Part shown: positions 17,676 to 64,000 of the stretch, piece after piece | Numbering within the stretch: position 1 is the first letter of the stretch | How the letters are laid out: every line of letters starts with the position of its first letter | Source: Owenia fusiformis | Taxonomy: Eukaryota > Annelida > Polychaeta > Sabellida > Oweniidae | Assembly (NCBI GenBank): GCA_903813345.2 | Contig: CAIIXF020000009.1 | Location: 25,580,740 to 25,644,739 of the forward strand | Length of the DNA stretch: 64,000 bases | Direction: 5' to 3' | Position numbers and translations under genes: made by a program | Notes under the pieces: generated by a model | The model's input: only the letters and a program-made list of their open reading frames with translations | Databases searched by the model: none | What the model was told of the DNA's origin: nothing

Positions 17676-18165
17676 ACACGTCAAGAATCAACCAATCACG
17701 GTGCAGTATCAGGACAATGTCATAATAGAACAGCTAGGAACCTAATGGACAATCACATGTAAAATATGAGAATTATTACTAATAGACTATGTCATTGAAG
17801 TAAAATGTATGTGATGTTTCCATATAGAATGACGAAACACAAAGGAGGTTCAACTTTCAAACTTAATAATATATTGGAATGCACTTTTGATTTTATGTGT
17901 ATCATGTGCCCTAAATTCAATGAATACTTGTAGTAAATACTTGTACAGTACATTTATTTTTAGTAAATCAGAATAAACTGTAATTAGACATTCCATAATA
18001 TTTTATGTAAATGAAGCTTTTGTAAAATGTATATGCCTGTGCTGGAACACAATTTGTAAATGTATTGACTTTCCATCTCGTAAAAAATCTAGATTATGTA
18101 TGTGATTTCGCAAAGGGTTTGTGCAAATAAGGAAAAAGTAAATAAAAGAATATAAAAGTTATATG
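17676..18165 (+). other. 3'UTR of the PLAT-ankyrin gene with two polyadenylation signals
   Basis: A+T-rich non-coding sequence follows the stop codon. AATAAA occurs at 17972-17977 and 18140-18145, so cleavage is likely near 18.0 or 18.16 kb. The exact 3' end is inferred. Confidence 0.55.
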
Positions 18166-23174: not shown

Positions 23175-23411
23175 TCATACAAATGATGAAAATCCAGCTA
23201 ATGGTGCCCGAGAGCCGGCACTATTGTTCATTATGACATGGCCGCCATTTAAGTTGACTGAATAATTATCAGGTTCACTGTCAGTGTAACTATATGCATT
23301 GTTTGGATTACTGGATTGTCTTTTCCATGACTGTCTTACAGGATCATTGACATAATGGTTGGCAAATGATCTATCTGGTTTTTCACTCTCTGGTTCACTG
23401 TCTTCTGAATT
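23175..23411 (-). CDS. sdk: sdk terminal coding exon with PDZ ligand
   Basis: Acceptor CTACTTGCAG, phase 0, 78 codons and TGA. Contains FANHYVNDPVRQSWKRQ, AYSYTDSEPD and ends GSRAPLAGFSSFV. The C-terminal GFSSFV is the invariant Sidekick PDZ-binding peptide. Confidence 0.96.
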   Translation of the reverse strand, partial: NSEDSEPESEKPDRSFANHYVNDPVRQSWKRQSSNPNNAYSYTDSEPDNYSVNLNGGHVIMNNSAGSRAPLAGFSSFV

Positions 23412-26400
23412 CTGCAAGTAGACAATTGAAAAAATGTCTATACATGTATCAGACAAATAAATTTGAAATGAAAATAAAGCTCAAAACGAGCAGAGAATTG
23501 GAGACAGATATTGAAAAAAACATGATTTCAGACTAACACTTTTGAGACGATTAAAAATAGAAAATAAATAAATAGAAATATAAAACAACTCAGAACAGTG
23601 GTTTATTTAATTGTTGCATGGTGTTGAATAGCCATCAATAAACTGAAGATATAAATATACAAAATACCAATGTCTCATATTTTACACAAACTGTGCTATT
23701 GAAGAGTGCATATATAAATAGATAAAAGGTGTAAATTATAAATAAACAGTATACATTGTATTGTGTAACATAATGTAACATAAAAGCAAAGCAAAGCAAA
23801 AGCTAAACAAAACAAAACAGTGAATGGTGATCCTAGTTCTGATATATGTCACCTTTTACAGGGTGTCCACAAATTATGTCACATTTTGCTATGGTGTCAG
23901 TTGTGTAAATTAAAGTAGATCTGTCTTTGACAAGAAAATGGGGAAGTGCCTTTTCAACATTTGATTAATTTCAAATTATGTTTTTCATTCTACCATATAT
24001 AGCCCCCACAAAAAGTGACAAAAATATTTCCCATTTAATTCACTATTCAATTTACTTGTGTACATAGATCATCAGGAATATTCTACCAAGTTATTGAATA
24101 TCATGGATGCCTCCATTTCCAAAAATTGACCGAATATAATCCCATTTCTTAGCTGAGCTCAATATGAGGCATTTTAGGGTTGGAACAGACTATTCACTAA
24201 CTTGTAAGGCCTGCATTTTTCAAATCAATAAGAACCACAAAAGAAATCACACAAATGAAAAAAAAACAATTTCCTATTTGTGTTCCACTCTAAAAAGGCA
24301 CTATTAAGGTACAATTCCATTACACATATACAACCCCGTGGACTGCATCTCAACTACAATATTCTTCAGCTAAACAGATGCATATTTTGACTAAGATCTA
24401 GACTCACAACTGAACAAAACGTACAATAAAAGCTGTTTTAGTGAACACCTCTCTCTAGTGAACACCCTTCATCCACACATATTGAATTCTGTATAAATTG
24501 CCCCTCTCTAGTGAACACCTACCAACACTGAACATTTCTTCGCAGCAAAAACTGTTCAATATACCCAGGTTTTACTGTATTATATCAAGGGCAGTCCTAT
24601 AAGTGAAGGTGCTAATGGTGAAATTTCACAGCAGACAAACGGCAAGCGTACAATTAAACACTGCGCCTTACCACTAGTTTTACCTGTGAATCTGTAATGG
24701 AATCTACATCAGAAGGTTTATCAGTGAGGCTACTTGACTCATCATCTTCCATGTAAGACTTCCGATCTTCTTCAGCATCTGAGTATGTGACACTGGCAGG
24801 GCTGGGCCTAGGGGGTGCCCTGGAATAAACATTACATTTCTTTAACTTGTAGATACAACATGTATATGTGCATAAGAAGTACATGTTCATTTCATATGAT
24901 TTTCATGTCTAGTTTACATGTACAAAATAGATACAAAAATCATTAGATTGGGCCGAGGGAGAGAAATATTATCTCAGATTTATCCTGGATTTAATACATG
25001 TTATACAGTAAACCCTTTATCTAAAACTGAATGTTCACAACATATGTATCCAAACCTACTAAGATTCATTTTCATCCACTGACATTTTGAAATGCATTGG
25101 AAAGATGAATATAAATTGAGTTTGAAAAATGAAGGAGAGATATTTCTATATGCTCTGGACCCCAGAGATTAGATATGGAAAATATCCAACCTGCTTCATC
25201 AAAAACAATATTCATTCTTCCATTATCTTAATAAAAAAAGAAATAATACCTTGCTGCATATAAACTATTTCTAATTTCTTTTGAGTTGCGATTACTGCTG
25301 GGTTTTCTTCTTGACTGGCGTAATTCAAATGTGCCGAATCCCCCATCATCTGTACGAACTCCATTCATGCCCTCCATACTCAATGCCTTATTGATCACCT
25401 CTGAAACAACAAAAATACATTAAGAAATAATGAATCTGGGGCATTAACAGAAACTTCTTAAAGTTAAGAATTCATAAAATCCATTGTTCTCTAACTGTGA
25501 TGGCATTAAATCCATGGTTACAACAATTGATTTACTAATTCGTAACTTTACGAAGTTTCTGTTAATGACCGCCAGATAATTGCAAAATAATTAGTACTTT
25601 TTTTTCTTATAGACCACACACTAAGATTTTCAGCACCCTTCGTTATCATTGTGCTATAATCGGCAAATTTTCCTCAGAGCATAATTAATTGACTTTATTA
25701 AGCAATAATATACAAACTTATACATGATGATGATGAACCAAAAGTATATATTTTGTTTCACTTTTAATTTGCCTTACTCTTACTTTTGATGTACTTATCT
25801 CCCTGTGTGTTTTATTCTCACCTTGCTTATATTTGGCATTCTTCTTGTTTCTGCCAGATATACAAAGGATGGCGATAATGATGATGATAAAGATAAGACC
25901 AGTCAAAGCAACGATCACAAGGAACCACCACTGCTGGTAGAATGGCAACTGCGCAAAATCTGGAAATAAAAAATATTGGTATGAAGTCATGGAAATGCGA
26001 AGAGATTAAATGTCCATGTGAGATACCAGAAAGGAGATGCATTCTTCATTCTTACCTCTAAACATGAGTGTTATTTCTACTATTTGGTGACTCTAACGTT
26101 ATGATTCCAATCAGTTACGTGTAATTGTCTCACTTGTGATGATGACATAAAAATTGTTCAAATCGACCTGTTTATGGAATAATGAAAATATAACATAATT
26201 GACTAAACCTAATGTGGAGTCTTACAAACTGCAATACAATTAACATTCTTTCATGGGAATGACGTAGCGTCATGTATGCATAAAATGACGAATGCAAATA
26301 AGTTCTATTTTCAAGAAGCACCTATTCCATCATTTAAAAATGTGTTCATGTAATTAAACATTAAATAGTTTCTACATACCTGGTGTTCTCATAATGGCCG

Positions 26401-29400
26401 AAGGCTGGCTTGGTGCACTGATACCCTTGGCATTAATAGCTATAACTCTGAACTGGTAGTTGGTACTTGGGTTGAGATTGCGATAGCTGATGATCACGCT
26501 GGATTCACGCATGTTTGTACGCATTATAGTGGTCCACTTGATCTCAGCTGGAATAAACAAACACTCTGTGAAATGTTCATGAAAGATTGGGGACATAAAT
26601 GTTTCTCTAATGAGATGTTTGTGTTGTATCATTTACGAAACCCCTATATGGTAAAATGTAAAACAATATGTACAGTATAAAATCTCCCGACCCTAATATC
26701 AAGAATGGATCACTGTATTCAAAACTAGCAGGATATAATCTGGTTTCACAGAGCAGAGAGGTCATATCCCCATATGCCAACTGAATGACTACCTTCTGTA
26801 CCTGACCTGAGCCACTTTTAATTGTACGTATACATAAATTGACTGTTCCACTTAGCAGGTTAATTTTTCAATATGGGGTGTTCACTGTTCAAGTTTGGAG
26901 GTGTTCCACTTAAAAAGGTTCAATTAACATTAAGTCAATGGGTTTTTAAAACGGGACTTTGAAAAAGTGTTCCACTTGCGAGATGTTCCACTTATGGAGG
27001 TGTTCCACTTAGCAGGTTTTACTGTACTTACTAGTTGGTTTTGCCTGTATGATATATCCAGTTATCGGCGACTCCCCTTCATTTCCATTCTTCCAAGAAA
27101 TCTGTACTGACATATCACTGGGAACAAATGTAGGCTGACTAGGGACCCCAGGAGATCCTGGCTGAGGCCCAGTGGTGATATTTCCCTGTCGTGGTTCCCC
27201 CCAACTGATAGAAGTTCGTCCCTTCACACTAAAGACATATCTAACGTTCTCATCTAGATCCCCCGCAAGGTAGTGTGTTATTGTTCCATTTACTTGAACT
27301 TGGACAGTTTTACTGATTGTGCCTAGTTGAAAAGAAATATTTAGAATTCAGTTAGTGGTTAATAGAATGTAATATGCTATGGCTTGAAATTCCAATTTAT
27401 TTGCAGGACTGAGGTTCCTTTAACATTAAAGGTTAAAACATGCATATTATTTGGACAATTGCACCTGTACCATTTCACTATAACACAAAACCAAATCCAA
27501 ATTAAAATATAAAGTATGTTCTAATGTCTCAAAATTTGACAAAAATATGTGTTTGTAAAACAGAGTCACTCAGTCTTTTCTTCCATTGTAAAATCTCACC
27601 TTCAGAAGCCTCACTCTGGAAATACAGTATCTCATATTGTGTTATGATGCCATTGGATCTCTCAGGGGCACTCCAACTGACATTCAAAGAGTTCAGAGAG
27701 ACATTCGAGAACACCAATACTCCTGGTGGACCAGGTACTGAAATGAGAAATGAAAACATCAATTTTATTACCATTTATGTAGATAACCACCAATAAAGGT
27801 AAGGCTTTATTGATAATGTCATAGAAAACTGTTGATTGATAAGACTGTTTCAAATTGAATTTCATTTTACCATACTAGCTCATACTTAGTTTGTGCTAAT
27901 TGACAACTGAGTTACAATCTGATGTGAAGGCTCACATATAGAGAGCAGAGACTGGATGTAAATATTATAGATTAATCATAATTGGTAGGAGAGATGGATT
28001 CAGATTATACGCTGACTGGAATAACTTGGGTACTACAGTATATCACATCAGATTCATATCAATTCAATAAATAACACCTCATACCTCCTTCGTGTGTTTT
28101 AGCAATGGCTACAGTACTATTTGGTCCATCTCCAGCTGGATTAAATGCCAGGACTGAGATCCTATATGTGGTGAAAATAGACAGGTTATCTAAAATTGTG
28201 TCACTAACATCTGCCGATACAATGTGAACCCGCTCTGTCTCTCTACTGTTTTCTACCCAGTAATACACCTGGAAAACAACAAGTTTACATATACATGTAA
28301 TTAGAAGTTGTGTTTTTTTCATAATGCATCAATTCCCAAAATTCAGACAAATGTACTTGGAGAGGACTTTTGGATTGTGAGACTGACTGATGCTCAAATA
28401 AAATCAGGTCTAGCTAAACTTCCATTGGTGGTTTATAAAATGTAATTATTCAATGGTACATGTTTTATATTTATATTTTGTTTGGAATAAAATGAGAGAA
28501 TAAAAAACTGACATACCTTATAGCCCAGTAAGTCTCCGTTCCACGTCTCCTTGGCAGGTGGACTCCAATTAACAGAGATTTCTGTAGAACTTTTTGGAAC
28601 AGCAGAGACATCTTTTGGTTCTTCGGTCGGGACTAGAAATAACATGGACGAGTGAGGTTGGGATTGTATTTGACCAAAAATGTTGAAAAAGCATCAAATA
28701 TGTAAAGAATGATGGAGCTGAGTTTATAAATAGTGAATAGAAATGCAAAAATCATTAATTTAATTTATACTTGTGGTCAAAGAAGTTTGTGTCACTCATG
28801 ATGCAACAAAAAAAGTAAAGGTTAAAATTGTAAAGGTTAAAAAGTTTCTAATTTTATCATGCAATAATTCTCTACCAATATTCTATGTACAGAATGTATT
28901 CAATATTTCTAGTGTACATCCTAAATCTATCTAATGTTAAATCATTATCTACACATATTAATTAACTCTAATATTCAATACATGAACAGGGTGTTCCATA
29001 AGTATGGACTGATAATACTTGCACGAAACCTTACATTTGGAGCACCCTGTAATCAATAATTATCATACATTGTTAAAACTATATTGAACACCTACCAGCC
29101 TCCCCGACATATACATCAATAGGTTTACTAGGGGGTCCAGCACCCTGAGAATTATATGCTATGACACGCATTTCATACACTTTTTCTGGGGTCAGATTGG
29201 TGAGAAATGCATCCTGGGAAGGAAATTGGATAGTACGCTCCTGCCAGTTTGGCCCGTAAAGTTGACGATATTGTACCCGATACCCAGATAATCGTTCATC
29301 ATTCCAAGTATCTCGGACAGGGGGCTGTTAAGCGATAAAAGTTAAATAAAAATTTAATATTAATTCATGCTAAATCATGCTGTTAGGAAACTATCAGATG

Positions 29401-32400
29401 CAGGAGGAAGGGGGGGGGGGAGTGGTTCACTTGGTACTGTAGAGGCTAAAACATGCAAAGTAAATAATAAAACAGAATATCTAAAACAAAAATGAGCTAT
29501 GTTAATCTTACATACAACATGTAGCATACCCTAAATATTAGTTCAAAACAAAATAATATACATGCATAAAAGGTTATACAAATATGAACTAAATACAATG
29601 AGTCGATATTTCCCATGCCCATAAGAATTAACAAAAAAAATCACTGGAAATATCCTCCATAAGTAAAAACTCCTATCAAAACAAGAATCAGTATTTTACT
29701 TGGATTTGATGGAAGCTTGCATGTGATCTCTTTTGGTATGTTGTGCCTGACCCCCCCCCCCCCCTCTCTCTCTCTGAATGTGGTTATGATTCTATCTTTA
29801 TGAAAGCAGAATACTGATTTTTGTATTAACATTTTAACAATAACATGCAACTCTTGTTAATGCTGAAACATCTCCATGCTGAAATAGCTATCAGAGTACT
29901 CATGTACCTATCTCCATATAAACCAGTATAACATTGCTCCATGGGCCAGCTCCGTACATATTAAACGCCTGAATTCGACACTCATATGCCTTTTTCAGTT
30001 GCATGTTATCTAGAAGGAGAGTATCAATCTGGGCATTGAGGACAGTCTCCATACGCCATTGTATCTGGCTCTGATCTTCTCGAACCTGAACATGGTAGCC
30101 TATCTTATCTCCATTCCAGGCTTTATCTTCGGGAAGCTACAATTTTAATATGTGAGTGTGATAGACATGATGGTTGTTCAATAAATAATCCCTGTATTAT
30201 ATTAAAATTGTCAATTTTAATCTAAACTTTGCTTATTATAGCACGGACCTGAAGAAATGGATTGGAAACTCATCAAATTCTTGTCTCGGCCTATTTCAAC
30301 CGCTAGAGGCGCTGTAGTCTACGGCGCATGCGCAAACGTTTCATTTTTTGGGAGAAAATATGGCGGAATGTCAATTTTGGTAAGTTTATCGCCTGTATAT
30401 CGTGCTATATTGATCGTATATTGTCGAAAGTATCGCATTTCACTAGATTAACAACTGTTCTATCCATGGAACAAGTTTCAGATCATTCCGACTTGATTTA
30501 GATAGCGGTTAACGACCCCACAATTTGAAATCAACATTCTCCGTGTTTCGTCCATTTTCAATGAATTTGTTCATAAATTATTCACTCCTGCTTTTATTAT
30601 TATCGTGTTCGATTTCAAAACATCCGACTTAACTAGATTAACTATCATTTTAATTACCTGGAAAGTTTCACATTATTCTGACTTGATTTTCATAGTCTAT
30701 AAGGACCCCACATTTTTGTTGTTTCATTTTTTCTGGTCTTTTTTGTCTCCAAATCTGACAAAAATCTGAGTGAAATGTTACCTTTTTGTGTCATGATATG
30801 ATATATCACTTTGAAGCTTCTTCATTTCACCACAATTTTAGAATTTCAATATTTTGACTTTGTGTAAAGTCCATTTCACTTTTTTTTGCGTCAGTAGAAC
30901 CCCAGAAATAAGAAATAGGGAGACAACTGTGCAACAATATATAGAAAAGTATATTCACATTGTACATGAATGACATTTGTATATTTCAGATTTTTTAGTT
31001 TTTTGTGCAATATGAATAAGCCTGAGCCCTTTGTAATGTCAGCCATGTTATCTTATTGAAAATAACATGGCAGAGAAGCATCAAAACATAAGAGGCCACA
31101 CACTTTATAAGCCAAACTAGAAGCAATCCAAGATATACAAATGTCATTCATGTACAATAGAAATATATTTTTCCATATATTATTGCATATTGATATTTTG
31201 ATTTCTTATTTTATAGGTTTTACTGATCAATGGACTTAACCATGCATACTCACAAACATCAGAGTTTTTCTTAGGAAATACCCCCTAGAGGTTTCTTTAG
31301 CGGGTATTTCTTAGAAAAATTCTGATATCTTTATGTGTAATGACATGTCAAGCTCAAAGTCTGTAACCTCTTATATTTTGATGCTTTTCTGCTATGTTAT
31401 GTTAATTCTGCAAAAAATAATGTTGCGGATAGACCTCAAATTACAAGGGGCACAGGCTTATTTCAATGAGTTCATCAGCTTGCCTTTGAAGCAGTTTGTA
31501 ACTATCTACTGACAACACAATATTTTTTGTAGATTAAGGTTATTGAAGTACAATTTTAGATGTAAGATATTTTAATTTTTAGCCTTCCTTCATCTTCCAA
31601 GATTCCCAACAAGAAAAGTCTACACAAAAGAATGAAAGCAGGGATTGTTTGCCTACACTGCCTATATAGGTAAGAATAAGATTAATCTAAAATACATGTA
31701 TTGCAATTGAATTAATTGAAAAATGAGGTTTCATCAGATCTGTACCTCATATCATAACCCTATCTAGTCTTAATTTAAGTCACTTGACTTAAACACTAGC
31801 TATTTGAACACGTTGGCTTTGGCTAGGCAATTGTGCTGCCATCTGCTTCAGCTTCAAGTACCTAGAATTTGCAGCATGACTTAAAATTATACCTTATCAT
31901 TAAATCAAAAACAAATAAATCAAACTAGACTTTAAAATTGAGAGAGATGCATATTTTTCTATAAGCAGTAATGATCAAGCTAATTTGAAAACTTCCCTTT
32001 GTTACAGAGAGAAAGATATTGGAGGAGGTGTGGTGCCCCTAACCATAAGCTGATCAAGTAAGTTATAAAACTAAAAAAGTAAATTACACTATTATTGCCA
32101 ATAATTAGTTTGAAACAGCAGTGCAAAGGCATAGCATTCTGGCATTAGCAAATCCCCCAAAATTTGAATTTATAGTGATTTGTTCTTAGTATTCACATAT
32201 AAACTCTCTCATATATTCTAGCCAAAAATGTAATATAACACACATAAAAATGGCTGACATGTTTCAAAAGGGTCACTTAATAGCCAAAATGTCATTGGAA
32301 AGTGTTATGCTTTTAAGTTTTCATTTATAAAGTTATCTCCTTGTTCTTTCAGTTATTCCCATGGGATAGCAGATGACCACAGATATTGTGCTCCAGATGC

Positions 32401-35400
32401 TGAATCTGAAATGTAGGTATCCAATAAATGGTGAATGTTCATTAATGTTTTCCATTGGTAAATGCACGAGCATTGCAAAATCCAACAAAAAGATGGTAAT
32501 TTTTCATATTTAGTTAAAAGCAGTTTGAGTTTAGCACCATTCAAAAGTTTGCATGTGCGCGGGAGTCAGGACTTTTGACTGGAATCGTTTTGTCCAGTAT
32601 ACACTTTAGAAACTCATGATCTGCAAATGTAGTCAAAGTCATTAGACATCTAGAGGTGGAGCAGTCTGCCTTAGCATAGTGCCATTGAGAAAAGTCCTTT
32701 TAGGCACTATTTACCAAATAAACATAATATAAATACAGGTTTATACAAGTTTTTAGAGCTTTTTAAGTATTTTTTATTTGGTTCTTAACTAGACATATGT
32801 TTTTAAGGAAAAGGACCCCTTAGAATGACAAAATAATTTGGACACTATTTACCTAAAATGCCAATGTCAAACTGAAAGTCCACAAATACCAGGTTTACTA
32901 AAAGTAAGACAATGCAGGCAATGATCTCTCCGGTATTTTTTTATCAGGCAGGTGTAAAATTCTCATTTTCATAATTAAGACCAAAATTGGTCAAAATATG
33001 CCAATTTTTCATGATTTTTCTCATTTTCAAGTGGGTGCAACTGGATTTTCAGGTGGTTGCAAGCCTGTATTTGAAATCTCAGGTTGGTGCTGCACCCACT
33101 TGTTTAAATGCTTGGGAGATCACTGGCAAGGAAAAAACAAGGAAATACACACATACCTTCATACTTTATTTTGTACCAGAAAATAACATGTGCAGGTATA
33201 CATAGCAATTTTTAATTTCAGGCAACATCTAAATAATGGTGTACAAGAAGATAAAATCATCTGAACTAATGGGCAGGAAGTAGGAAAAATCCAAGTCAAC
33301 ATCCTTGACAAGGTATGCATCACCCCAGTTAACAGTGTTTCATTGGTCAACTTTATGGGTTGAGGTCAATCAGAGGTCAATATCTTTTTATTTGGTGTTT
33401 TAAGGAAATTGGTGTCGCTGTGACACTTGGCGACCCATGATTATGTGACCTGAGGTTAAGTTCATTCCAAGGTCAAAGGTTCATTTCAAGCTCATCTTAA
33501 GGCCAAAGGTCAATATATAAGTATTTGGTGTTTTACTGACCCTCTGTATCTCCTGATCAGGTACCTGAGGTAAAAGTTAGTGTTAATTGGCCAAGGTCTT
33601 CTTAAGGTCAAAGGTGTATATCTAGGTATTTAACATGTCAAGGCCTTTTGACAAGTTCGCCTCTAATCAAGAGTCAGTCAAGGTCAAAAGATCAGTATAC
33701 GGGTATTTAGCATTTTATTGGGGCTCCTGCCATGTGAGACCCTTGGTGACCCACTTAAATGGATAGATTGCTAGTGGTGTTTATAAATCAATTTTTTCTC
33801 TCGAAAGTTTCTTGTAATATATGAATAACTTTGATATTCATGTAGCCTATATTTCTATTTTTCAGATTGGTAGTGTCTAACATGTCTAATGGATGATGTT
33901 CCCTGCCATAAGTGCAAGAAATGACTGGCTTCCAAGGTTACTGATTGATACAATAGCAATATCCAGCTCAAATCCAATACATTTACAGCTTAAAAAAACA
34001 CTCAACAAACTGGCATTGTAATTTCGCATCATTCACAATCAGCTATGCTCACAAGAAAAATGTACTATAAGCATGGCTAAATCAATTTGGCATGCAAAAC
34101 TCTATTCCTGATAAACACATATGAAGATTATGAGACCAGACCAAGATATAAAAATATGTATATGCATTCTAAGCAAGTGTGGAATTCACACCTCACATTT
34201 CAAAAATCTTTGATTATGCTCTAGTAAAAAGTACTGAGAGTAGCAATTAAAAAAGCGAAAAAAGTGAAATCACGCAGTAAAACTGTTGACACACTAGATG
34301 ATTGATAACACAACTCTGACATTATGATAATACTTTATTTTAATGATATGAAACCAAAACTGTTTCTGAAAGGACATTTTCAAAGTGTTACATTGTCCTC
34401 ATTTTGTGCTCATTGGCATACACTGTACTCGCTGTATATTTTGACATTATTTAATTTCCCCAATTTCACAAATTAAAATTTATAGACCCCTGAAGTTTTA
34501 AAAATATGCTTCAAGAATGTACAGTATTTATGTCTACCAAACTTTATATTTCCCTGGGGAATTGACAAAGATGACCATTTTTTCCTGATTTTACCACCAT
34601 GGCAAATTATGTGTTTAATTAAATTGCATTTGAAAAATACTTGGATAATGCAAACTAGAGCCAACACTGATTAGGTTTTAGACAAAAAAAGGTAAATAAT
34701 ACATAGCCTCCATTTTGAATTTTTTCATTAAGATCTAGGAGGATTAGCTCCCAGGGTTCCCTGCTTAGTATTTTGCCATATATGATTATGATATATGGAG
34801 TGTCGTCATGAATTCAAAATTAAATACTGTTGATTGGGTTAATTAAGCGCTACTTAATTTGGCGATTTTGCCACTTTTGGCATATTGGCGGCTATTTAAT
34901 TTGGTGGATATGCAAAAAAATGTTAAATGTGCGCTGTTTGCGAATTACCAAGTAAATGGGCATATTTGGCTATGTTCATTTTTTCCTTTGAGGACCACTG
35001 GCGATATTCACCATGTTTGTACATTTTTGTGAGATCATCCTTTACATTTTGCACCTAGATCGATGCTGCTACTATACCGCGCTTTTCCTTTCTAGTTTTT
35101 GCCTGAGTATTAATGAGTGACTGACGAGTTCTGAGCCAGTTCTGAGAGACATTTTTTCATATTTTTTGAAAAAACTGAACCCGAAGTGACCTAAATACAC
35201 TGGACGAAATACCCTATATAATTCCCGGGGATTCATTCTAAATTTTGGCGAAGATTTATATTGGCGAATTTTTCAATTTCGCCTAATTAAAGTGGGCGCC
35301 AAATTAACCCAATCTACAGTAGCTGCCATATTAGCCATTCTCCTTGCAGTTCAGTCTTGCATTCATTGGCATAGAAATCATCACTGGAAAAATTGTTTGG

Positions 35401-38400
35401 ACTTTTTGGGGAAAAAAATATTGAGTTTGAAGCCTGGGAAACCAATGCCTTGTTGTCTCGACATCAAAATTAATTTCATGAGTGGGATTCAGTTTTAATG
35501 TACATGAAGCTTTAATATAATTCTGAAGGATATGACTTGGTATGTAAATTACTTGGTGCTATGTTCCCTGAGAGCAATTTATTGCTGTGTGTCTTGTTCT
35601 ATCATTTTTATGTTAAGAAGCAAAAACAATAATATTCATGAAAACTAGATTTTTGGGATATCCTCATTACAAAAATTTTGGGAAATCTATTCAAGTAGTG
35701 TTGAAGGCATATGTTCAGTTTTCGCAATAATCCATTTCTCAATTGTCTGTACAATATAAAATATAAATGTATTTGAATGTGAAAATAAATGTGAATAATT
35801 CTTAATAATAACATTTCTTGTTTGTTATGTTTAGCATATATATTTTTTTAATTTAGGAATGGTTAAAAAGTTAAAAGTCGAATTTTTTATATTTGATTTG
35901 GATCATCAAGATAACTTATCTTGTTCAGTAATCTGTATGGTAACCGTATTTAGTAATCGGTACGTTGTTATTTGCCTTTTGGGTCACTGTACTCAGTGAC
36001 CGGTATCCTTGACCATTAGGTCAATCAACATTTCTGCGGATAGATGTCGTACTCACTAATTGACATCGTTCCTGCGCAGTCAGGAGTAAAAGACTGATTG
36101 TTATTGTGAATAACCTCACTTGTGCAGTTTTGAGGTTTATGCAATACCTTCACGATAAAGACTTCAATTTTACATCGTTGACCAGGTAGTTATTTTGTAC
36201 AAAGACATTAAAAAGCTCATGAAAAACATCGAAGTTATACGGTGATTTTTATTCGATTTTTTCAAGGGGTCTCCGAAATTTTCGCAATTTCTGTTGCAAT
36301 TACCCTACCTATAAAGAATTTGCACAATCAAAACCCGTCTAAATCGTAACAACTAATTGATTTTTATGTCTCTGCCAAGTATCAAGTGCAAATACTGTCT
36401 AGTTTTAACAGGGTTGGAAGAATCTATTATTGAGATGAGAATTCTCGTCATCGCCAAGATTTGTTGAGCAGTGATTTTCATGACGTCATTTGTTTGGTTT
36501 AGCAATGACGTCATATGTAAACAATGATTTACGCATGCGTGAAAACGGCAGCGCCTCTAGCGGCAAAATGAGGCCGAGACCATTGGATCAATGGGAGTTT
36601 CCAATCCATTTCTTAAAGTCCGTGTTATAATATAACTTATAATGGTTGGCATCTTCTCCACAAAGATCGACTTAAATTACTGTATGTTAAGAGGGTGTAT
36701 GGTTGTCATGGAAACCACTCATCGGCAATGATACGTTAGATTTGTCATAGTATCTGATTTTGAAGATCCTCTCATTTCACATCATCAAGTCAATTTGGGA
36801 AATTGTTTTATTTCCCTTTAGTTTCTTTATACACACAAAATATATATTCATATTCCTAATTTGATAATCAATAGTTGTTTGGTATTATATTTTTATTATA
36901 CATATGTTTGTTTTCTTAGAATGTTGCCCTGTATAAGATCTGAAGAGGCCAAAAATGTTAATAACAAGAATGCTTTTTTCTGAATTGCCCTATACTATTT
37001 AGTACTAAGAGATATATACATGTAATTTCACATACCTCCCATGTGACTTTCACAGAAACAGTTGTATATGGTACAGCCCTTAAATTATAGGGGGCACCAT
37101 CGGGTGCTAGAAAAATAAAAAAAATATATAAAATTACAAAACTATAATAATCATAAGTTTAACAAAGTTAGAAATTACCATTATAAAAACAGAAAACAAG
37201 TGTCCTTTCCAACGTTTTTTCACTTTTTATATTAGTAAACAGAAAGCCAACTCACCATCTGGAAGAGTGCGAGCCTCATCTGATAAAGGACTATAATCAC
37301 TGGTCCCAACATCATTGCTGGCAGCAAGTCTGAAGTTATACTTGGTGAAAGGCTTCAAGCTGTAAAAGAAACAAGTAAAAGTTATAATGATGAATCAGGA
37401 AATGAATCCCTATGTATTCTGTATATTATATTCTCTAGTAGATTTTTAAATCATTAACCCACTAATGTTAATGAGATTTTTCTATGTCTAAATCAGTCTA
37501 ACATTTGTTCATCTTACCCATAGATAGTGTAGGAAGTCACATCAGGTGGCACAATATCTGGCAGGGTCACCCATTCACCACCCTCCTTATAGACCTGTAT
37601 TGTGTAGTTTCTAAGGGGTCCATATCCATCATTCCCAGGTTGCCAACTGATTGTGACTTCACGGGAAGACACTTGAGACTGGCCAATGGTAGGTTTCGAT
37701 GGTGGATCTGGTCGATCTAAAATGAGAAGTTTTCAAATTAGAGGTATACAACTTCCCCAGTGTACCTCCAACTCTGTAAAAATCATACTTGGGCCAACAA
37801 AAACAAGCGCAATAGGTCAATACATGTATCAAAAACCTGTTTTGTTTTTGTAGCATACAGTAGTTTTTATTTTATTTTCGAAAGTCGAAAATACATATAA
37901 CATCTACTACCAATCGCCTGGGCATTCTAGGTAGTTAAAAATTATAAAAAATTAAAACCCTGGTCTACAATGGAGGTATACAGTCAAGACAGTTTACCTC
38001 TGGAAGAGTCAATAGTTGTGTCAAACAATGTCAGTAATTTACTTACTTCTGTTGATCATGGTGACAACTTTCACTGTTGCAGTCTCACCCCATCCTTCTC
38101 CATCACCCTTAGCAGTAAGATTGAACTCATAATCTGTCATTTGTTGTAAATCGTTCACTTCATAGTAAAGTCTATCTGCACCTAAAACAAGAAAAAAAAA
38201 TGGAGTTATAGCAAGTTGATCTGCAATTCCTGACATGTTTTAATTTGCTTTCATGAATCAAACAAGACACAGACAGAGTGGTAAATATCACACTTTGAAC
38301 AACAAGGCACTGACAATACAGCACTTTTATACTCTCATTCATGCCTCTGTAATATTAACATATTTACCTAATGTTTCATCTACGAATGGGTCATCACGAC

Positions 38401-41400
38401 TGCCAAACTCTTTATAAGCGATTCTATATCCTGTAATAACTCCATTGGGCTCCACTGGAGGGCTCCACTGACACTTGAGGAAGGTGTATGTCACATCAGG
38501 GAAATAGATACTTGATGGGGGACCTGGTTCTGTAAACAAACATTCAATGACTTACTGAAATGTATGAAAAGAATAGAGACTTCGGATGTTGGAAGCTGTT
38601 CATTATAAAAAAATAAGATGAAGTCTAACTTTGTCATTCTTGATAGATTTCCCCTAAACACAATCAACACTTACTGTCTGAGAACGTCCTAGCCACAGCA
38701 GGTGGTCTACTTAACACGCCATCTCCAATTCTAGTATAGGCCAACAACTGCACCTCATACTGGACATATTTCTTCAGATCGTTCAACACTGTTGTTTTTG
38801 TATTGTTGTCAGTTATCTCCTAAAAGATGCATGAGAAAAAGTCAAGGCAAAAGTTTCACCACACATTTTCATTAGCCATCAATATGAAAATTCTCATGGA
38901 TTGTTATGGATATTAAGCCTATTTAGTTTATAGCATTTGTATTCATACAAACATATTACGTATTTAAACATCGGTAATATGTTCGTAAATTGGCAAATAA
39001 AACTGCCATTTTGTACACCGATTTCGGACAAATTAGACACACATGTATGCATAATACAAAGAGAAAAAAGATACTCATAAACCTACAATATAACAAGCTA
39101 GACATACCTTAAGAACAGGTGCAATGTTGGCCTCTGTAGATCCATACTGGACTTTATAGCCTACGATGAGACCATTACGATGTAGCTCAGGTACATCACC
39201 CCACACAACACGAATGCTGGTTGAAGATAGAGTTGTTGCTTCAACATTACTTGGACCTTCACTTGGGGCTGAAAAATATCACTTGAAACTTAGACGCCAA
39301 AAATAACCATCTCCAGAACTGAAAATTCGATATATTCTGTGTTATATGTATCAGATCTCTAGTATCAAATATATATCTACATGTATTTCATTTTTAATAT
39401 TTATATGTATGTCTCTTTGGTTTGTATTTCCTTTCATGCCTTAATAACCACTGAATACATAGCACCACTTACTGGATTCTCTAGTCCTATCAGATGCCAC
39501 TGGGCTGTAGCCACTGTTCCCAACATCATTGTACGCCTCCACCTTCACGTCATACACAGCCCATTGGTGCAGCTTTGAGAGAATGTAGCTGTTCGCAGAG
39601 GGTTTCTCAAGCTCCAGTGAGAGATACGTAGTGACATCACTGCGCTTGTATGCAATCCTGTATCCCCTGGGAGCGCCGTTCCACTCTGTGGCGGGTAATG
39701 GCTGCAACATGGTGGCAATGATGATTGGGGGTAAATCAACATGCATGCATGTTAAATGTACACAATGGCTTAATATGTCAAAAAGAATCCAGAAATATAA
39801 ATAACAGGTACAAAATATCTACTTAAATATGTTCAAAAAATAATTGAAATTGTTTTGTGAATAAATTGTCAATTTGTTGTTATACAAAACAGAAAACAAT
39901 GGAACTCATTTCCTGATTTTGCATGTTACACTCCCATATAGCAATAGATCATGTTATCAATATGTCATTCTTAAATACTCAGTAAATGATGTCATCTCTC
40001 TCTACTCGATTCTGCAATTTAATTTAGTTTATTCATCAAAGTTTATTCATCTTACCGTCCAACGAACTCTGACTGCTGTCTCGTTCACTGCTCTTACAGT
40101 CACATTCTTAGGGGGCATAGATGGAGCTGCCTGTATGGTCTGAAACTTTGATGTTGGCTCACTAGGAGGACTAATTCCCGCAACATTCTGAGCTTTCATT
40201 CGCAGTAAATAGTTAGTGTATGGTCGTAGATTCTCGACCACAATTTTTTGAGCATCTGGGTCAGAGTACTCATATATCAACTCCCAATTGAGATCATTTC
40301 CCACCTGGCCTTCAACCAGCCATTTTGTAATTGATGTTTTGCCGTCATATCCGGGTTGGAACTGGAGTAGGACTGATCTGGCTTTTCTGTTTGATACACC
40401 TAGGTTGGTAGGGGCACCTGGGGGCTCTGAAAATACATAGAAAAATAATTTTAAAATTGAAAAAATAGTTAAGAGATGTCAGGTTCAAGTCCTGCAGAGT
40501 GACATCTTTACATCTAGAGCCAACAAAATGTTCTAAAAAGCAAGCCCAATGTCCTGTTTGCTGAAGCCCAATGTCTTGTTTGTTGTTTAAGAACACCTAT
40601 TCTTACAATTAAAAATGGATTCTACCAATACCCTCACACGGATATTTGAGTTAATGTGTAGGCAGTTAAGAAAAATCTGTGAAGTAAACATGTACAAACC
40701 TGGTGGCACTCCAGATTCTATGTCAGCTGATCTCACTGGACCTGGCCCAACTCTTGAACTGGCGAATATAGATATTGTATACACAGTCTCTGGTTGGAGG
40801 TTAGTTATATCATCACTCAGGGTTCCTGGTGGTAAGATGCGCTCCTCAACATTTCTTCGACGTCTTCTTTTTGTTGTTGCTGTAATGTTCTTTTTGACCC
40901 ATTGTAGTGTATAACCTATAAAATATTAAGTTTTGAAATCTCATTGGAATGACCTGAGTACAATTGTAACAGGGCATTTACATGCAAAATGTTACAAGCT
41001 GCCATTTGTTACAGACACCAAACACCGCTACAAAAATGGAGACTATAACAATATGTCACCACTTGTGATGGCGATAAAAAAGGGGACAAACATGTTAGTA
41101 TGTAAATGGGGGTCTGGTGACTCATCTCCAAAATGGATCAATGTTATTGGTAAGGAGCCCCCCTCCCCCATTGATTGACTCACTTACTTAATCAGTACCA
41201 TGCTTTCCAACTAAAACTTGAATCAAAGCTTTTGTTTTTGATCTATGATTAATGTTCAGTAATCAGTAGTGTACTTACCAACTAACTCTCCATTGATATT
41301 TTCGGGTGGGGTCCAGCTGACTTTAACAGAAGTAAATGTAATATCTGTAAATTCCAAACTGCTTACTGCATCAGGAATATCCTCCTTTGTTGTTAGTGCT

Positions 41401-44400
41401 ATACTCGCTGATTTTGGACCATCGCCTTTACCAGTGTAGCAAAGCACTGTGATGTCATACTGTGTATATTTCCGTAAATCTTCAACAGTTGCGCTTTGGT
41501 TGCCGTAAATGTTTAAGACATCAAGTGGTACAGTGAGAATTACATCAGGATTCAACGTGTTAGGCCTCTGAGCTGAGATTTTATAGCCTTGATTGATACC
41601 ATTTAGAAACTGAGGATCAGGGGGACTCCAATGTACTGTGATTGAAGTTGAACTCGCAGCAAATGCTGTCACATTCACAGGAGATGCCGTGGGTACTCCC
41701 TCTTCTGTCCATTCCCGGATACTACTACTAAAAACTCCCGTCCCTTTACGATTGTATGCAGCAACCTGCATCTCATACTCTTGGAACACAATCAGCTCTT
41801 TCAGTTCATAACGTCGTAAAATCACATCTGTGATGTTGTGTTCGGTAAAACTCCCAGGATACCCTGCAAGTTTGTAGCGGATGATGTAACCTTTGAGGGG
41901 ACCATTCCAGAAGACTTCCTCGGGAGGCGACCACTGAATGATGATTGACGAATTAGAGCTGGCACTAGCAACAACACCTAGTGGTGGTGCACTGGGCGCT
42001 GAAATACATAAAATGCAATCCATAGACATCATAATAATCATACATGATAGTACAGCTTAAAATCTTGATAAATTACTTCACCAGAAATCAAACAATTATT
42101 GAAACAAATATAAAATTCTAGAAGTTGAATTAAGAAATCATGATACAGCCTGTGATACATTCTCCACTAATATTTGAAGAATTTTAAAATCGAACATCAA
42201 AATTTCCAATTTTACAAAATATGCCCTTACGCTGTTCAGGTAGTGTGATATCCTGACTTGGCATGCTAGATGGCCCTTCCCCTACACCATTCACTGCACT
42301 GATTCTGAACTGGTATTTCTTAGCTGGCAGCAGGTGTGTGACAGTGTAAAGCCTGAGATCCTTGTTAATGTTACTGTTAGACACCTGCCAGTTATCATCT
42401 GGACCCAACTCACGATCTGAAATAGAAAATCCAATTTGAAGAAATAGTAATGGTATAGTTCTCATTCATAAATCAGACAGAACAGTCCATCATGAGAAAT
42501 CATGGCCTTCTATGAGCTTCTTTCTCATTGAAGGCAGAAAGATGTGATGCGTATCAGAATGAAGGAGGTCAAATTTTTCAACTGTTAACTTTATTCAGAT
42601 GAATGTTCACAAACGCAGAATTAATTGTAAAATGAGACTGCTTTATGAACACTTATTCACCATATGATTTCATACAACATAATTATCATATAGACTCTCA
42701 TGTAAAAATATTAACAGAAGACATATGTCCTTGTGTATATATTGATTCAGTGAAAGAGTCTCAATAACTAATAGCATGTTACAAATTATAACATATATAT
42801 TTCCTAATATTGTAGAGCATTTATAAGTAAAATCTCTACCTTCTGGTTTAACTCTGTACTGAATGATGTACTTCTGAATTGGACTGTTGCCATCAAACCC
42901 TGGTGCCCAAGATACATCCACAGCTTTTGCATTATCACTGTTTAACTTCACCGATGTGATACTTGGAGGATGGGGCAGTTCTATAAGAAACACATACATG
43001 TATGTTGAAACTTAACAATATACTAACACTGGGTTCTGACGCCAACGAATACTACTGCATTACACAGCACAGAGTTGCTAAATTGACTTTACTAAGTAAA
43101 ACAGATGACAGTACAAATGTCCAAATTCTTCATTGGTAAAGGTTATGGTCTCTGGTTATGGCTTATTCTATGCATTTCTCTTTAACATCCAGTAAAATCC
43201 GGATTTTCTGACATTTCTTTGGGTGCTGTTCTCCATGGTAAGTTGATTTCTTTCTGAGCTAACTTTCAAACTGAGTTCAATGTTCTATCTATATTTCTAG
43301 TACCTACCTATAACTTGTAGATTAGCTTGTCGGGAATCATCTCCTCCTCGCGACGTCACCTCACACCTATACACGCCAATATCATCAGTTCGTACTTGGC
43401 GTATTGTCAAACCGCCCTCTGGTGTCATTGAAATACGACTGGTCGGATCGGTGATTGTCAGCTGTCTACTGTTGTGGAACCATTTCATAGTTATCTGTAC
43501 ATCTGGGTCATGTGACACACCACATGACAAAATGGTCGTTGATCCCATTATGGCAGAGGTGTCTTGCGGGGGTTGAGTAATGCGGGTTCTCACTGAAAAA
43601 TATTTCAAATGTCATCATACTTCAATGAGCCAATGGAAAGTATCAAGCAAATCTTTAAACAAGGCATTTAAATGCAAAAGTCACAACCTGTCATTTGTTA
43701 CAGACTGTGAACTCAAAACAACGGATGCTGACCATGGAGCAACGTCGACTAAAAGTTGGAGACATAACAATATGTAATAGGAAAATGTCATTCTTTTCTT
43801 TGAACAGAACTGTCTGATCTGTTATTCTTATAACATATCTTGAATGAATGAGCATCAAATGTACATTTCTAGAAGAGTTTGTTAAGTTACAAATTCTGTC
43901 CTTTTGTTCTCTCACTGTTACCATAGCAACAATTTAGCAATGTTTACAGGTAAGAACATTCTGGCAATATACCACAGACAACTCACCTGAGACTTCTAGA
44001 TATGCAAAGGCGATGGCATTTCCTTTTGTATTTGTGGCATTGCAGGTGTATTTTCCAGAGTCTTCCACGTCAGATGTAGAAATGAGCAGGATATCGTCAA
44101 GGATACGAACAGTGCTTGATGGGCCAACTATCCCTTCTTCTGGAATCACTTCTAGGCCACTTGATGTCTCTGTAAATATTGAAGAGCAAAAACTGAGTGT
44201 GGATTTAAACATATATAACATTGTGGTGGGTTTGGGAAATTATTTGGGAACCAATTTATTTATTCAATTTAAAAATGGCGTCACAGACACTTGTTTTGAA
44301 ACTAATTCTTCATATTAGCAAATGAAGCTTTGTGACATATTACATTTTCTCGAGATACAATTATATAGACAAAAACATGAAAAATGTCAACATGGGTATT

Positions 44401-47400
44401 GTTATGGATAAACAATAACAAAAATATGTCACTGATATATTTACATTTAGACAAAATAGAGTGTTTAGGAGAGGATACAAAAACATGATATTTTCATAAA
44501 ACATTCATAAATGAAAACATTCATAAGTGCATGTAGCATTTAAAATTCAATTTTAGTTCACGAATTCTTGAACTAAATAGCTGAATAGGGCCATTTGGTC
44601 TCTTCAATCAGGTTTGACAGATATCAGTGAAGTTGCATACTTGCTGAAAGCAATGCCCCGAGCAACATGTGTTATAATGTCAATCTACTCAAATTATTCC
44701 ACATGATTTCTATTAAAACTGATTTTCTCATTTTCAAACATTTCAAACACTAAAGCTAAGTTCACACCAACGTTGATAGCGCTTTAAAGCTATGTGCAAA
44801 GCGGCTTTGCACGGCACTTTAAAGCGCCATCAAAGCGCCATTGGTGTGAAGCTTTATCTAGGTGCTGGCACCATAACCATGAAGTCGTGGGTTCAAAACG
44901 TGTGAGCACCTTGCATTTATTCATCTATCACTGGCTTTGCATGTGTTTCCCTTATTTCGTACTAAGTGCCATGCTTCTGTACTCAATTTCAAATTGATAG
45001 ACACAACCAGCAGGAGATGTTATCAAGAAGAAAGCATGTGTGATCACTTGTTACATAAAAGGGGCCATGTATCTGTCAGTTCTGATTAAAGCAGACTTTC
45101 ATAAAATCATTCAGTTTTCTCAAGCTTTGCTTGCATGGGCTTAAAATAGATTCAAACATGAGAAAAATATCAAGAAATTGACAAATAAATTACTTGTGTA
45201 AATCTATGAAATCAATGTCACCACTCAAAAGTGCCATGGTACCATAACTCTTGGCCTTTTAGTCCTTTATATCATTATGAGTGATTAATAACAAAAAAGG
45301 TACTTTCATTCTTTGCATCTCTGATCTAATCTCATTTAATATGAGAAACATTTCCGAAGACACAAAATTTTAGTAAGTAAAAAAAATGTATAGCACATTG
45401 TTATACATGGTGCCATAAATATACATAAACAAAAGCGTTTCCAAATGACTTTCTAACACATCAACATAAAAAACATATTGAAGGATAAATAATAGTGACA
45501 GTAATGTCAACATGCCAGGTTAATTAATAGTGCTCTAATTACAATGATGACAGGTACGTGTATTGCATAACCCATCATGTATCCATCATGACTGTTCAGT
45601 ACATACAGGTGTTATGATGTCATGGCAACCATCATTAGACAATTACTCATTTCATTTTACATTTAAATGACATGTGTAATACTATTAAATGAGAAACAAT
45701 GTAATAGTTCATGATCAATCTTGGATGATGTTGCACTCACCCTTCCACAATGTTAACATGTATACCCACTTTTTAAGAATTCTCAGAATATGTGAATATT
45801 GAATTATCTGCTATATCAGTCAAAATTCTGGGACAAGAAAGAATGGTACTTTATTTTATGATCATACAGAGTGTCTCATAAGTATGCCTTACCTCTGGTC
45901 CAAACTACAGTTGGTTTTGGAGCACCCTGTACTTTACAAGGGAATCTAGCATCATTTCCTTCTACAATGGAAAGATTTGATGGCTTCTCTGTTATTTCTG
46001 GAGGCGAACCTGAAAATACAAGAATAAACTTGGATTATAACTTGGCCACAGGGAAGAGTCTCAGGCTCTTGGGCAGATATATGATATTTGCCATAGGATA
46101 ATGCAAAATCTTGAACCTCATATCGTTAAATAGGATAAACTCTGAGAAAATCTTGATGTTTATCCATGATACTGAAAATATTTCACCAATATACCGAGGA
46201 AATTTCCAAGTAAGATTTCAATTCACATTTGATACATAAAGCATACTGATACAAGAGCTCAATCCATTTAATCTCTTAATTTAATGTTATGATTCAGTTT
46301 ACTTGCTAACTCTTATTGTCTTAACTTAAAACAAGTTCCATTTAATCTCTCAATAGTGTTGACATTATGGATACATTTATTAGACATTTCAATCATCTAT
46401 AATTCCACATTATTTGCACGTTTTCGGAATATGAAATGGGATTAAAATCAATGGCAGTAAGTTAATTATAAAAGCACTTGGATCCAATACCAATGTTATT
46501 GTAACATCTTAAAACAGGACATGCCAAATGGAATTTAGGGAGGCAAATTAATGTAAATGTAATTTGCTTCCTAATGCCTTATTTGAATATGTAACTTGGG
46601 ACTCAATTTTGCTTGCAATAGAATGTTATTCAATTATTTGTTGTTCTCTGAACTCATACAATAGTTCCTGCATTGGGGAATATGAGGTGGGGGGGGGGGG
46701 TGAGGTAGAAACAGGGGGAGTTGATGTGAGTAAAAAGTGAATGTTTGTAACAACTGTACCCCCCCCCCCCTTTACTTCATTGCTGCCCTTTCTTCCTTCT
46801 ATGCTTATGACAGTCTAGAGAAATCTCAAATTATTCATCATTAATACCATACTCTCCCAACGGTACCATCAATCTATGTGCTCCTTGATGGGATATGTAC
46901 TTTGGATATCATAAGTTAATAGAACAAGAATCTCAAACCAATATAAACCACCATTTCTACTCAGTCAATTTTTAGCTGAAAAAGGAAGTGATGAGTACTA
47001 GTATGAATGGAGTGGAGAACTGTGTATTTATTTCAATGTGATTGATTGGGGAATTCACTTAAATGACTTTTATTTCTAATAAATACAGTATGGTAATATG
47101 GAACTTGCTAGGTTGAGATGAATAAATATTTATGAATACTTATTTATGTAATATTTGGGATGTAATACAATTGCTTTACAGTATTGTTCTTGTGTCATGG
47201 AATTGTCAATTTAAGATGGAGCAAATGAAACAAGGCATTAACATGTAAAATATCACCACCTGCCATTTGTCACCACTTTTGTTGGTGACATAACAACCAA
47301 AGTTGACCAAATATAAGTAACATTGCAGCAATATTGATTGAATGATGATTTAAAACTAAATTGATTAACTTAATTAGATTATGGCTTTCATCATATTATG

Positions 47401-50400
47401 TTGAAATATTGTTATTACAAATTACTGTTAATGAAATCATACGAGTTCATTTATATGTAATCTATTGTTTCAATATAACCAACACTAGTACTCAAATAAA
47501 GTGCAGTGTATTTGAATGTACATTTAATCTTATATTGTTTCTGCATTAGCCTAATGAATACTTGCATTCCCAAATTGTATTGAAATATGCAAAAAGGTAC
47601 TTTTTGTGTTTGAGAAAAAGAAGATACCGAAATACAGCTTGATTTACAATAAAACATTAATAAAGACACAACATTCTCCAAGGATGCAATATTTAATGCA
47701 AAGGTCTGTTAAGTTAGGGTTAAAATTCATAACTCATGTCATATTATATGATGCACTTGTCCATGTGGCAAAGATAAGACCACTTGAGAAAACAAAATTT
47801 TTCTAGAGATGATAATTAAAATGTCTCTCGGGGATTTATAAGTCTTCAAGTTCTTTTAAGATAGTCGAGGGAATATGGTTTGTAGAATAACAATTGGTTT
47901 TAGGCAATGTTGTGTTGTTAGATCATTTCCAAATGGTGTAATGAGTATTCAGACTGTTAGACTCTTCAAGATGTGCTAAAGGGACCATATTATTTTGCTG
48001 AAGTATTGTATCCCCAACTACGAGGTTTCACTTTGTAGGTAACATTGATTTTTCTGACTTCAGATTAAACTTTGGGGGAAATGATTGTTTAGTAATGTTT
48101 AAACAGGAGAGAGAAGTCAAAATGAAAATAGAATTATTTTTTGGTCTAACATGATTGATATGATCCCTTTGATAATAACCTTAAGATCATCATGAACTTT
48201 ATACACCTGGATAGTTATCTACCTTCTAAGACTTGAGCTACCTATTTGTTTCAGCTGTTCTGGATTGTTTTGCTGTGTTTTTCTAATCTGACTGTTTGTG
48301 CATGCTGTTTAATATGTTGCTCTTGTTTTGTAAAGAGTTAAGAAAATCAGATATATTTTTATAAATATTACTTGCCATTAGTAAAATTAGGGAAATACTC
48401 AAAGGAATTATGATTCATAATCGTATATCAACGTTACAATAAAATAAAATAAATCCATCTATGTCGTTCATTGTTCTAGCAACCCTTAAAAGAAATGCTG
48501 CATACAGTAATTGAAAGATTTCAAATACAGAATATACTCCAAAGGTAAACTGGTACAATTATGCACATTGGAATTGTTTTTCTCTCTATATTCCTCACAG
48601 ATTCAACATGATACATTACATGTAATATTTTGCATTCTAATACATGGCATTTATTCATTCTAGAACTCATATCTGCTTGGTTTATCATGAGGCCTGTAAT
48701 ATTTATCAATGCGTGGCTATGTATTTGTAGTCCTGGGTGAGCTCTCATTGGGATGAAGTATTAGGCGTTGACACCTCATTTGTTGATTTGCCATCTCAGT
48801 CAGAAAATTGATATTAATAATTCTTGTTTTTTGTCTCTCTTGGAATAAATTGCTAGAATGTTTTTTTTGTGACTCTTGTAATAGACAGTTTTTGGATGTT
48901 ACCTAATAACATACCAGTGATCTCCCTAGAATTAAAGCAAGTTTGCGCAGCACCTACCTGAGATTTTGAAAACATGCTTGCACCCACCTGAAAATCCATA
49001 TGCACCCACTTGAAAATGAGAAAAATCATGAAACATAGGCATATTTTTGCCAATTTTGTTTTGAATTGTGACAATGAGAAATTTGCACCCACTTGAGAAA
49101 AAATCCTGTGGAGACCACTGTCTTATAGAAATCACAAGGCATAAAATCCAAAATCTCACCACATACCATTTGTTACAGATATAAAATGCTGAACACCAAT
49201 AGCCAAACACCACCCACAAAAAAAGTTGGAGACTTCAACAATATCTCACCACTTGTGGTGGTTACATAATACACTGAATATGTAACAATCTGTAGTTAAC
49301 ACAAAAAAAGTTTATCACTTTTTCAAGTATTCAGCCATCTGAACACAATTTTTCAAGAATCAAGACTTATTTTTCCTAATTATCCACAAAATGAGGCCTA
49401 TTTTACTTCTCCCAATGCCTCTTATCAAATTATAAGTTATATATAGTATTATAGGTTAAAAGTTATCAATCAAGTAAATCGATCACGAAAATAGTCAATA
49501 TGTAGGAATTAATAATAATCCTATCATGTACATAACCCGATGGCATATAAGTATCGGACTGATTAGCGAATGTAGGTGGTAAATCATTGGATGATGCAAC
49601 AAGCACAGTGGAGGTTGCACAATACTGGCTGTTTCAATTAAATAAACCAATGATATTATTGTATTGTGTTTAGCTTAACATACCAAGCTGTGTAAACCTA
49701 TATTATTCTCGGTTGGAGTGATTATATAGGAATTCTTCCAATCTAGCACTGACTATATTTTGCATATCAGAGTAGGTTTTACAGCACTGAACTACCCTTA
49801 TTTCCTTTTTAAAAATGTACAATACCAAATATCAAAATTTTACAATAAGCCTATTGTTAACATTTACAGAAATATTAGTATTAAATAATTTTGGATTTTT
49901 AGGAGGTTATAATGCTAAGACCTAGTAAACTGCTTCATGGATTGGTTTTATGAATGTCTTTTAAATCATGCTACTTCATCCCAAGATATTTGAATTAACT
50001 CGCTGACTCACTTAATGAACTGATGTATCCTGATTTATGTCGGCGTGACCTCATTCATCTTCTGTCTGAATTAATTTTTGGGAAAATTGTTCAATCATAC
50101 TACTTAACAAAACTAGTTCACATTTGATTATGCGGAAATGAAAGTGTTAAAGGAATGACATACCAAAAAATAATAAAAAATCCATATGTTTATAGATATT
50201 ATTGTATCTATGATTTGAAATACATGTATACCAGTTTTGCTGATTAATGTCGATATTGTATTTCCTTTTCCTTATCAGTTAGTAAAATTGTAACTGTGAG
50301 AATATCAATTTCAATATCAATATCAATTTCTGTGTTATGAGGCTATACACAGGGATAAATATATCTAGCTATAATTTACATCAATATTTTATCAAAAAAG

Positions 50401-63662: not shown

Positions 63663-64000
63663 CTGAAAAACATATATAATTATGTTTAGTTAAATCAGAC
63701 ACAGTCCTGAAAAAGGAGAATCGTCAAAACTCATATTTATGGCTTTTCCAAAATCGATTACCTTAACAAAACAATGACTTTTTGTAAAGATTTCATTATG
63801 ATTCTACAGTTATAGAGATATTTGTTTAGATAATTGGATAATTTGTTTATTACCTCTCATGAAAACTCATGTTTTGATAATAGACCCTGAAATAAACAAA
63901 CATTTTCAAGGGCTACATTGTATTTACATTATGGGTTTTTATATTTTGTTCAAACAGCTGATTTTCGAGTAGGATCAATACGTACATAAAACTGTCTGTG
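63663..64000 (-). other. sdk: sdk intron continuing past the window edge
   Basis: Sequence 5' of the Ig1 exon. No signal peptide or start codon exon is visible, so the sdk 5' end lies beyond the window. Confidence 0.6.

Follow-up and report, generated by a model that had tools for sequence, protein, structure and literature searches.

In Drosophila Dscam2, mutually exclusive Ig exons give rise to alternative ectodomains. Alternative ectodomains of an IgSF adhesion protein are also obtained from tandem homologous exons in Drosophila Dscam1 (PMC8042237). In FGFR2 (IIIb/IIIc), a common exon encodes the first half of one extracellular domain and either of two mutually exclusive exons supplies the second half (PMC2880598; PMC4236556), an arrangement also proposed here for a pair of Sidekick exons. 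The intron separating IIIb from IIIc contains UGCAUG, and Fox2 represses the downstream exon and hence favors the upstream one (PMC2880598). Fox proteins also act in the exon pair 5B/5A of the nematode FGFR, egl-15 (PMC2880598), which represents the same half-domain exon choice as that of FGFR2 and as that proposed below for Sidekick.

Sidekick is hallmarked by six N-terminal Ig domains, 13 FN3 domains, a transmembrane segment and a GFSSFV tail, and is represented by two genes in vertebrates and by a single gene in the invertebrates named in a review (PMC7479261). Ig1-4 mediate its adhesion (PMC5045292). Little is understood of what the 13 FN3 domains do, and no ligand of theirs has been reported (PMC7479261). 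As to splicing, the major Sdk1 variant described lacks some of the Ig domains, and no alternative FN3 exon is described there; the review regards the significance of variants without Ig domains as unknown (PMC7479261). No description of mutually exclusive exons in Sidekick was found in the open-access papers searched, although absence there is no proof, and annelid gene models may already list isoforms of this type unnoticed.

The Sidekick gene and its two second-half exons

The window, i.e., the whole analyzed stretch of 64,000 nucleotides of Owenia fusiformis DNA, harbors on its minus strand (~23-64 kb) a gene which, judging from its architecture and GFSSFV tail, is Sidekick. Domains of the annelid erythrocruorin linker family score above the cut-off of that family in this genome; COX1 was not found in the assembly. 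The GFSSFV motif closes the frame 23480-23178 (the Sidekick C-terminus), a hydrophobic (transmembrane) segment is located at ~25.85-25.95 kb, and about six Ig-like exon groups, delimited by eye, occupy 43.3-63.7 kb, with the gene start beyond the window. The profile scan of the FN3 region revealed exactly 13 first halves of FN3 domains, which is the canonical number, vs. 14 second halves. The features concerned are as follows:

23178..63723, minus strand: remaining Sidekick exons inside the window, with Ig-like exons and FN3-1 to FN3-9 upstream, and FN3-11 to FN3-13, the transmembrane segment and the GFSSFV tail downstream
37036..37106, minus strand: 71-nt exon common to both forms, which encodes the first half of FN3-10 (phase 1 to 0)
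29908..30136, minus strand: exon A (229 nt, phase 0 to 1), a putative alternative for the second half of FN3-10; both its acceptor and its donor are weak
29096..29324, minus strand: exon B (229 nt, phase 0 to 1), a putative alternative for the second half of FN3-10; its splice sites are strong, and it is likely the default
28517..28632, minus strand: the following exon, again common to both forms, with which FN3-11 starts (phase 1 to 0)

Several other elements were recorded in the window. An 81-bp tandem repeat (3.6 copies, 22678-22968) lies just 3' of the Sidekick stop codon, and a 29-bp tandem array (52359-52525) adjoins an Ig exon. A second gene on the plus strand (10500-17700), arranged tail to tail with Sidekick, encodes a PLAT/LH2 domain at 11714-12061 and, on the assumption that both belong to one gene, ankyrin repeats at 14303-14611.

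The coordinates, length and phase of both exons, as given in a preliminary description, were reproduced, and AG/GT ends are present in each. It had also been claimed that either exon completes the FN3-10 domain begun by the shared 71-nt exon. Indeed, joining the latter to A or B yields one fn3 domain in each case, scoring 45.8 and 59.9 bits, respectively; on their own, A scores 28.5 and B 42.7 bits (Pfam fn3, cut-off of 25 bits). When all six frames of the entire genome (498 Mb) were searched, the proposed homology of the two exons proved to be far above chance: A retrieves B as its best non-self match (E=6.3e-5, the next being 0.17), and B retrieves A at 7.3e-5, second to one exon of a non-Sidekick FN3 gene at 2.9e-5. 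FN3-like matches were also encountered as dense arrays within very long open frames (1770 and 2331 residues) in contig C58 (10-60 kb) and contig C7 (15.706-15.712 Mb); these are perhaps titin/twitchin-like giants.

Exons A and B share 28 of 74 aligned residues (38%). The conserved positions belong mostly to strands C, F and G (assigned by eye), and the B-C loop and the C'-E region are replaced, in agreement with the suggestion that the differences reside mainly in exposed loops. An N-glycosylation sequon, NLT, is present in B and absent from A; in the F strand, A possesses Cys at a site expected to be buried where B has Met. The opinion that A resembles other Sidekicks more than B does was not supported with A taken as the upstream exon: it is B that fits the canonical FN3 better by its Pfam fn3 score, although, when compared with FN3-11 of this gene, A is marginally the closer of the two. 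The end of exon B, VYVGEA|VPTEEP, seems to resemble the vertebrate Sidekick sequence VFVGEAVPTAAP. An assembly or haplotype duplicate was ruled out by the 38% residue identity and by the single match of genomic DNA.

The surplus second half could, in principle, belong to a separate FN3 domain whose first-half exon was missed, so that Sidekick would comprise 14 FN3 domains or a swappable whole domain. Whole-domain duplication could leave two tandem second halves, and FN3-10 and FN3-11 are themselves alike. Still, the profile scan at maximum sensitivity found no spare first-half exon in either the 6.9-kb intron or the one separating A from B, and 13 FN3 domains are the canonical number (PMC7479261). 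A missed extra domain was ruled out on this ground, and A and B placed in two separate domains is a scarcely credible arrangement. There being 14 second halves for 13 first halves, and no first-half exon to spare, a single slot is contested by A and B.

The reading frame is in line with such a competition. As was noticed before, joining A and B shifts the frame and leads to TGA TGA after eight codons; skipping both exons likewise shifts the frame. Thus, the members of this tandem, homologous pair of equal length and identical phase break the frame when included jointly and when skipped jointly.

Selection on exon A and the strength of its splice sites

The silent sites of A and B are saturated, so the NG86 method returns no finite dS, and 4-fold sites agree in only 2 out of 13 cases. 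At the same time, the proportions of differences at codon positions 1, 2 and 3 are 0.46, 0.38 and 0.70, respectively (position 2 vs. 3: Fisher p=1.3e-4). Since positions 1 and 2 are constrained in spite of the saturated silent sites, A is not a neutral relic. A neutral copy would have stayed open with a probability of ~0.003-0.008 at 1-2 substitutions per site, and would have stayed open with both splice dinucleotides intact with a probability of ~0.0003 or less, in either case even if indels are disregarded. The codon usage of A is coding-like in frame (7.6 vs. a null of -27.1, SD 9.6) and strongly non-coding in the other two frames; its score is, however, below that of other exons (12.4-40.5). 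On this evidence, A has been under selection as protein through most of its history, and it is almost certain that two homologous exons, both under selection, are present.

The FN3 halves are too short and too divergent for a tree to resolve A with B, and by score FN3-11 is marginally nearer to A than B is. Hence, the origin of the pair by duplication of a single FN3-10 exon is deduced from their common intron position and phase.

Both exons had been credited with good splice sites. A generic site matrix was applied to the exons of the FN3 region one by one, except for the donor that follows the long exon at 41.3 kb and the acceptor that precedes 28.3 kb. The claim held for B (acceptor 7.7, donor 9.5) but not for A (acceptor 0.7, donor 4.2). 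Within the scored FN3 part, A has the lowest acceptor, and all other clearly placed donors outscore its own; other exons of this region display acceptors of ~3 to 11 and clearly placed donors of 5.4-10.6. This pattern is that of a putative strong default exon (B) accompanied by a helped exon (A). With sites this weak, use of A may be rare, or the exon may have begun to decay recently.

Taken further, the latter idea would leave B as the working exon and reduce A to a dying duplicate, or to an exon spliced only at noise level, with no functional switch in existence. The acceptor and donor of A, weakest in the scored part of the gene, its fn3 score lower than that of B, and its codon-usage score of 7.6 vs. 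12.4-40.5 are compatible with decay. On the other hand, the frame, length, splice dinucleotides and FN3 core of A are intact despite the saturated silent divergence, codon positions 1 and 2 are constrained, and the intron separating it from B harbors a GCATG cluster (see below). Any decay could, therefore, be only very recent, and this scenario is considered unlikely.

The A-B intron and its candidate regulator

The 583-nt intron between A and B possesses the following features:

29325..29907, minus strand: A-B intron, 583 nt, with seven GCATG
29879, 29848, 29618, 29565, 29456, 29380 and 29370, minus strand: starts of GCATG
29849, 29566 and 29457, minus strand: TGCATG, three of the seven GCATG

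The seven GCATG compare with 0.49 expected, and the Poisson p of 9.1e-7 survives correction for ~1,000 pentamers, the cluster having been sought after the intron was read and the motif being known beforehand. The background comprised 368 kb of strand sequence, i.e., the two strands of the window (with the A-B intron masked) and both strands of twelve 10-kb stretches of the genome. None of ~12,000 control windows (overlapping, of the same size) contained above five GCATG. Apart from G and C runs, GCATG is the top enriched pentamer of the intron; no enrichment in MBNL, CELF or STAR motifs was detected there.

RBFOX proteins bind (U)GCAUG. Two of the GCATG are located within ~65 nt after the donor of A, and two others ~40-55 nt before the acceptor of B. 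The intron thus displays the layout of the RBFOX type, with (U)GCAUG enriched where the intron follows the upstream exon (A) and where it precedes the downstream one (B). An RBFOX-like RRM was found in the same genome as three co-linear exons (C9:4.004-4.007 Mb), 60-75% identical to a vertebrate-type query. By analogy with the known Fox-regulated pairs, control of the A/B choice by RBFOX seems fairly probable, and the packing of the motifs suggests a cell-type switch.

Control by RNA pairing was considered as well. The donor of B (29082-29097) and a stretch just upstream of A (30168-30183) are 81% complementary over 16 nt, which is near the chance level; as a controlling element this pairing was rejected, since in a post-hoc test it ranked only 83rd of 41,041 window pairs and was reached by 17 of 500 shuffles. 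A C-run (29404-29426) and a G-run (29750-29772) on the minus strand of the A-B intron could form a very stable stem (-45.7 kcal/mol). Such a stem would fold the intron, but the runs may be only simple repeats.

The weakness of A and the regulator motifs flanking it would also suit a poison exon, i.e., double inclusion serving as a deliberate off switch with a truncated ectodomain or decay as the outcome, since A joined to B meets TGA within eight codons. An exon of this kind, however, would need neither an FN3 fold nor residue constraint, nor the exact length and phase allowing it to replace B, and this role for A is held to be highly improbable. Mutually exclusive use, with inclusion of A being predicted, appears to be the best reading of one first half, two homologous second halves, a frame permitting exactly one of them and an RBFOX motif cluster in between. 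It is very probable that both exons are used, one at a time.

The proposed switch and its relation to known systems

According to the mechanism proposed here, an old tandem duplication of the second-half exon of FN3-10 gave rise to A and B, both of which, as their sequences show, have been retained as functional coding exons. The shared first-half exon would be joined to one of the two; a message containing both, or lacking both, is out of frame and would presumably undergo nonsense-mediated decay. Exon B would be the default owing to its strong splice sites, and A, with its weak acceptor, would be chosen upon binding of an RBFOX-type protein to the (U)GCAUG cluster of the A-B intron. As judged from FGFR2 IIIb/IIIc, the sites just downstream of A would aid A and those just upstream of B would block B, so the A form would be expected in RBFOX-positive cells and the B form in all others. 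The outcome would be two Sidekick ectodomains with different FN3-10 loops, probably differing by cell type. Taken as a whole, this explanation (old tandem duplication, A/B choice, B as the default and RBFOX-helped A) is regarded as the best one, with a probability of roughly 0.75.

Since FN3-10 belongs to the FN3 stalk, outside the Ig1-4 adhesion interface, homophilic specificity is a less likely target of the switch than cis-packing, membrane association or a ligand site. If selected, the exchange of half of FN3-10 would demonstrate a specific function of this domain and would indicate the exact place to seek a partner. If true, it would also offer an animal with one Sidekick a further route to two recognition forms. 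The existence of an ancient RBFOX-controlled, cell-type-specific FN3-10 switch in Sidekick across a wide annelid or spiralian group is a tentative and rather doubtful extension; if it holds, one Sidekick gene would have two ectodomain identities, and FN3-10 would be a functional site in the stalk.

Of the systems outlined above, Dscam1 and Dscam2 vary Ig domains of the recognition face, whereas A and B encode a part of an FN3 domain of the stalk. The choice in Dscam1 is made by RNA pairing, while in the Sidekick pair nothing convincing was found beyond the stem of the G-run and the C-run. FGFR2 differs in that its swap concerns an Ig domain of a receptor kinase rather than an FN3 domain of an adhesion molecule; its regulation has been tested experimentally, whereas that of the Sidekick pair is deduced from sequence. 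Anatomically, the analogy to FGFR2 IIIb/IIIc appears to be the closest.
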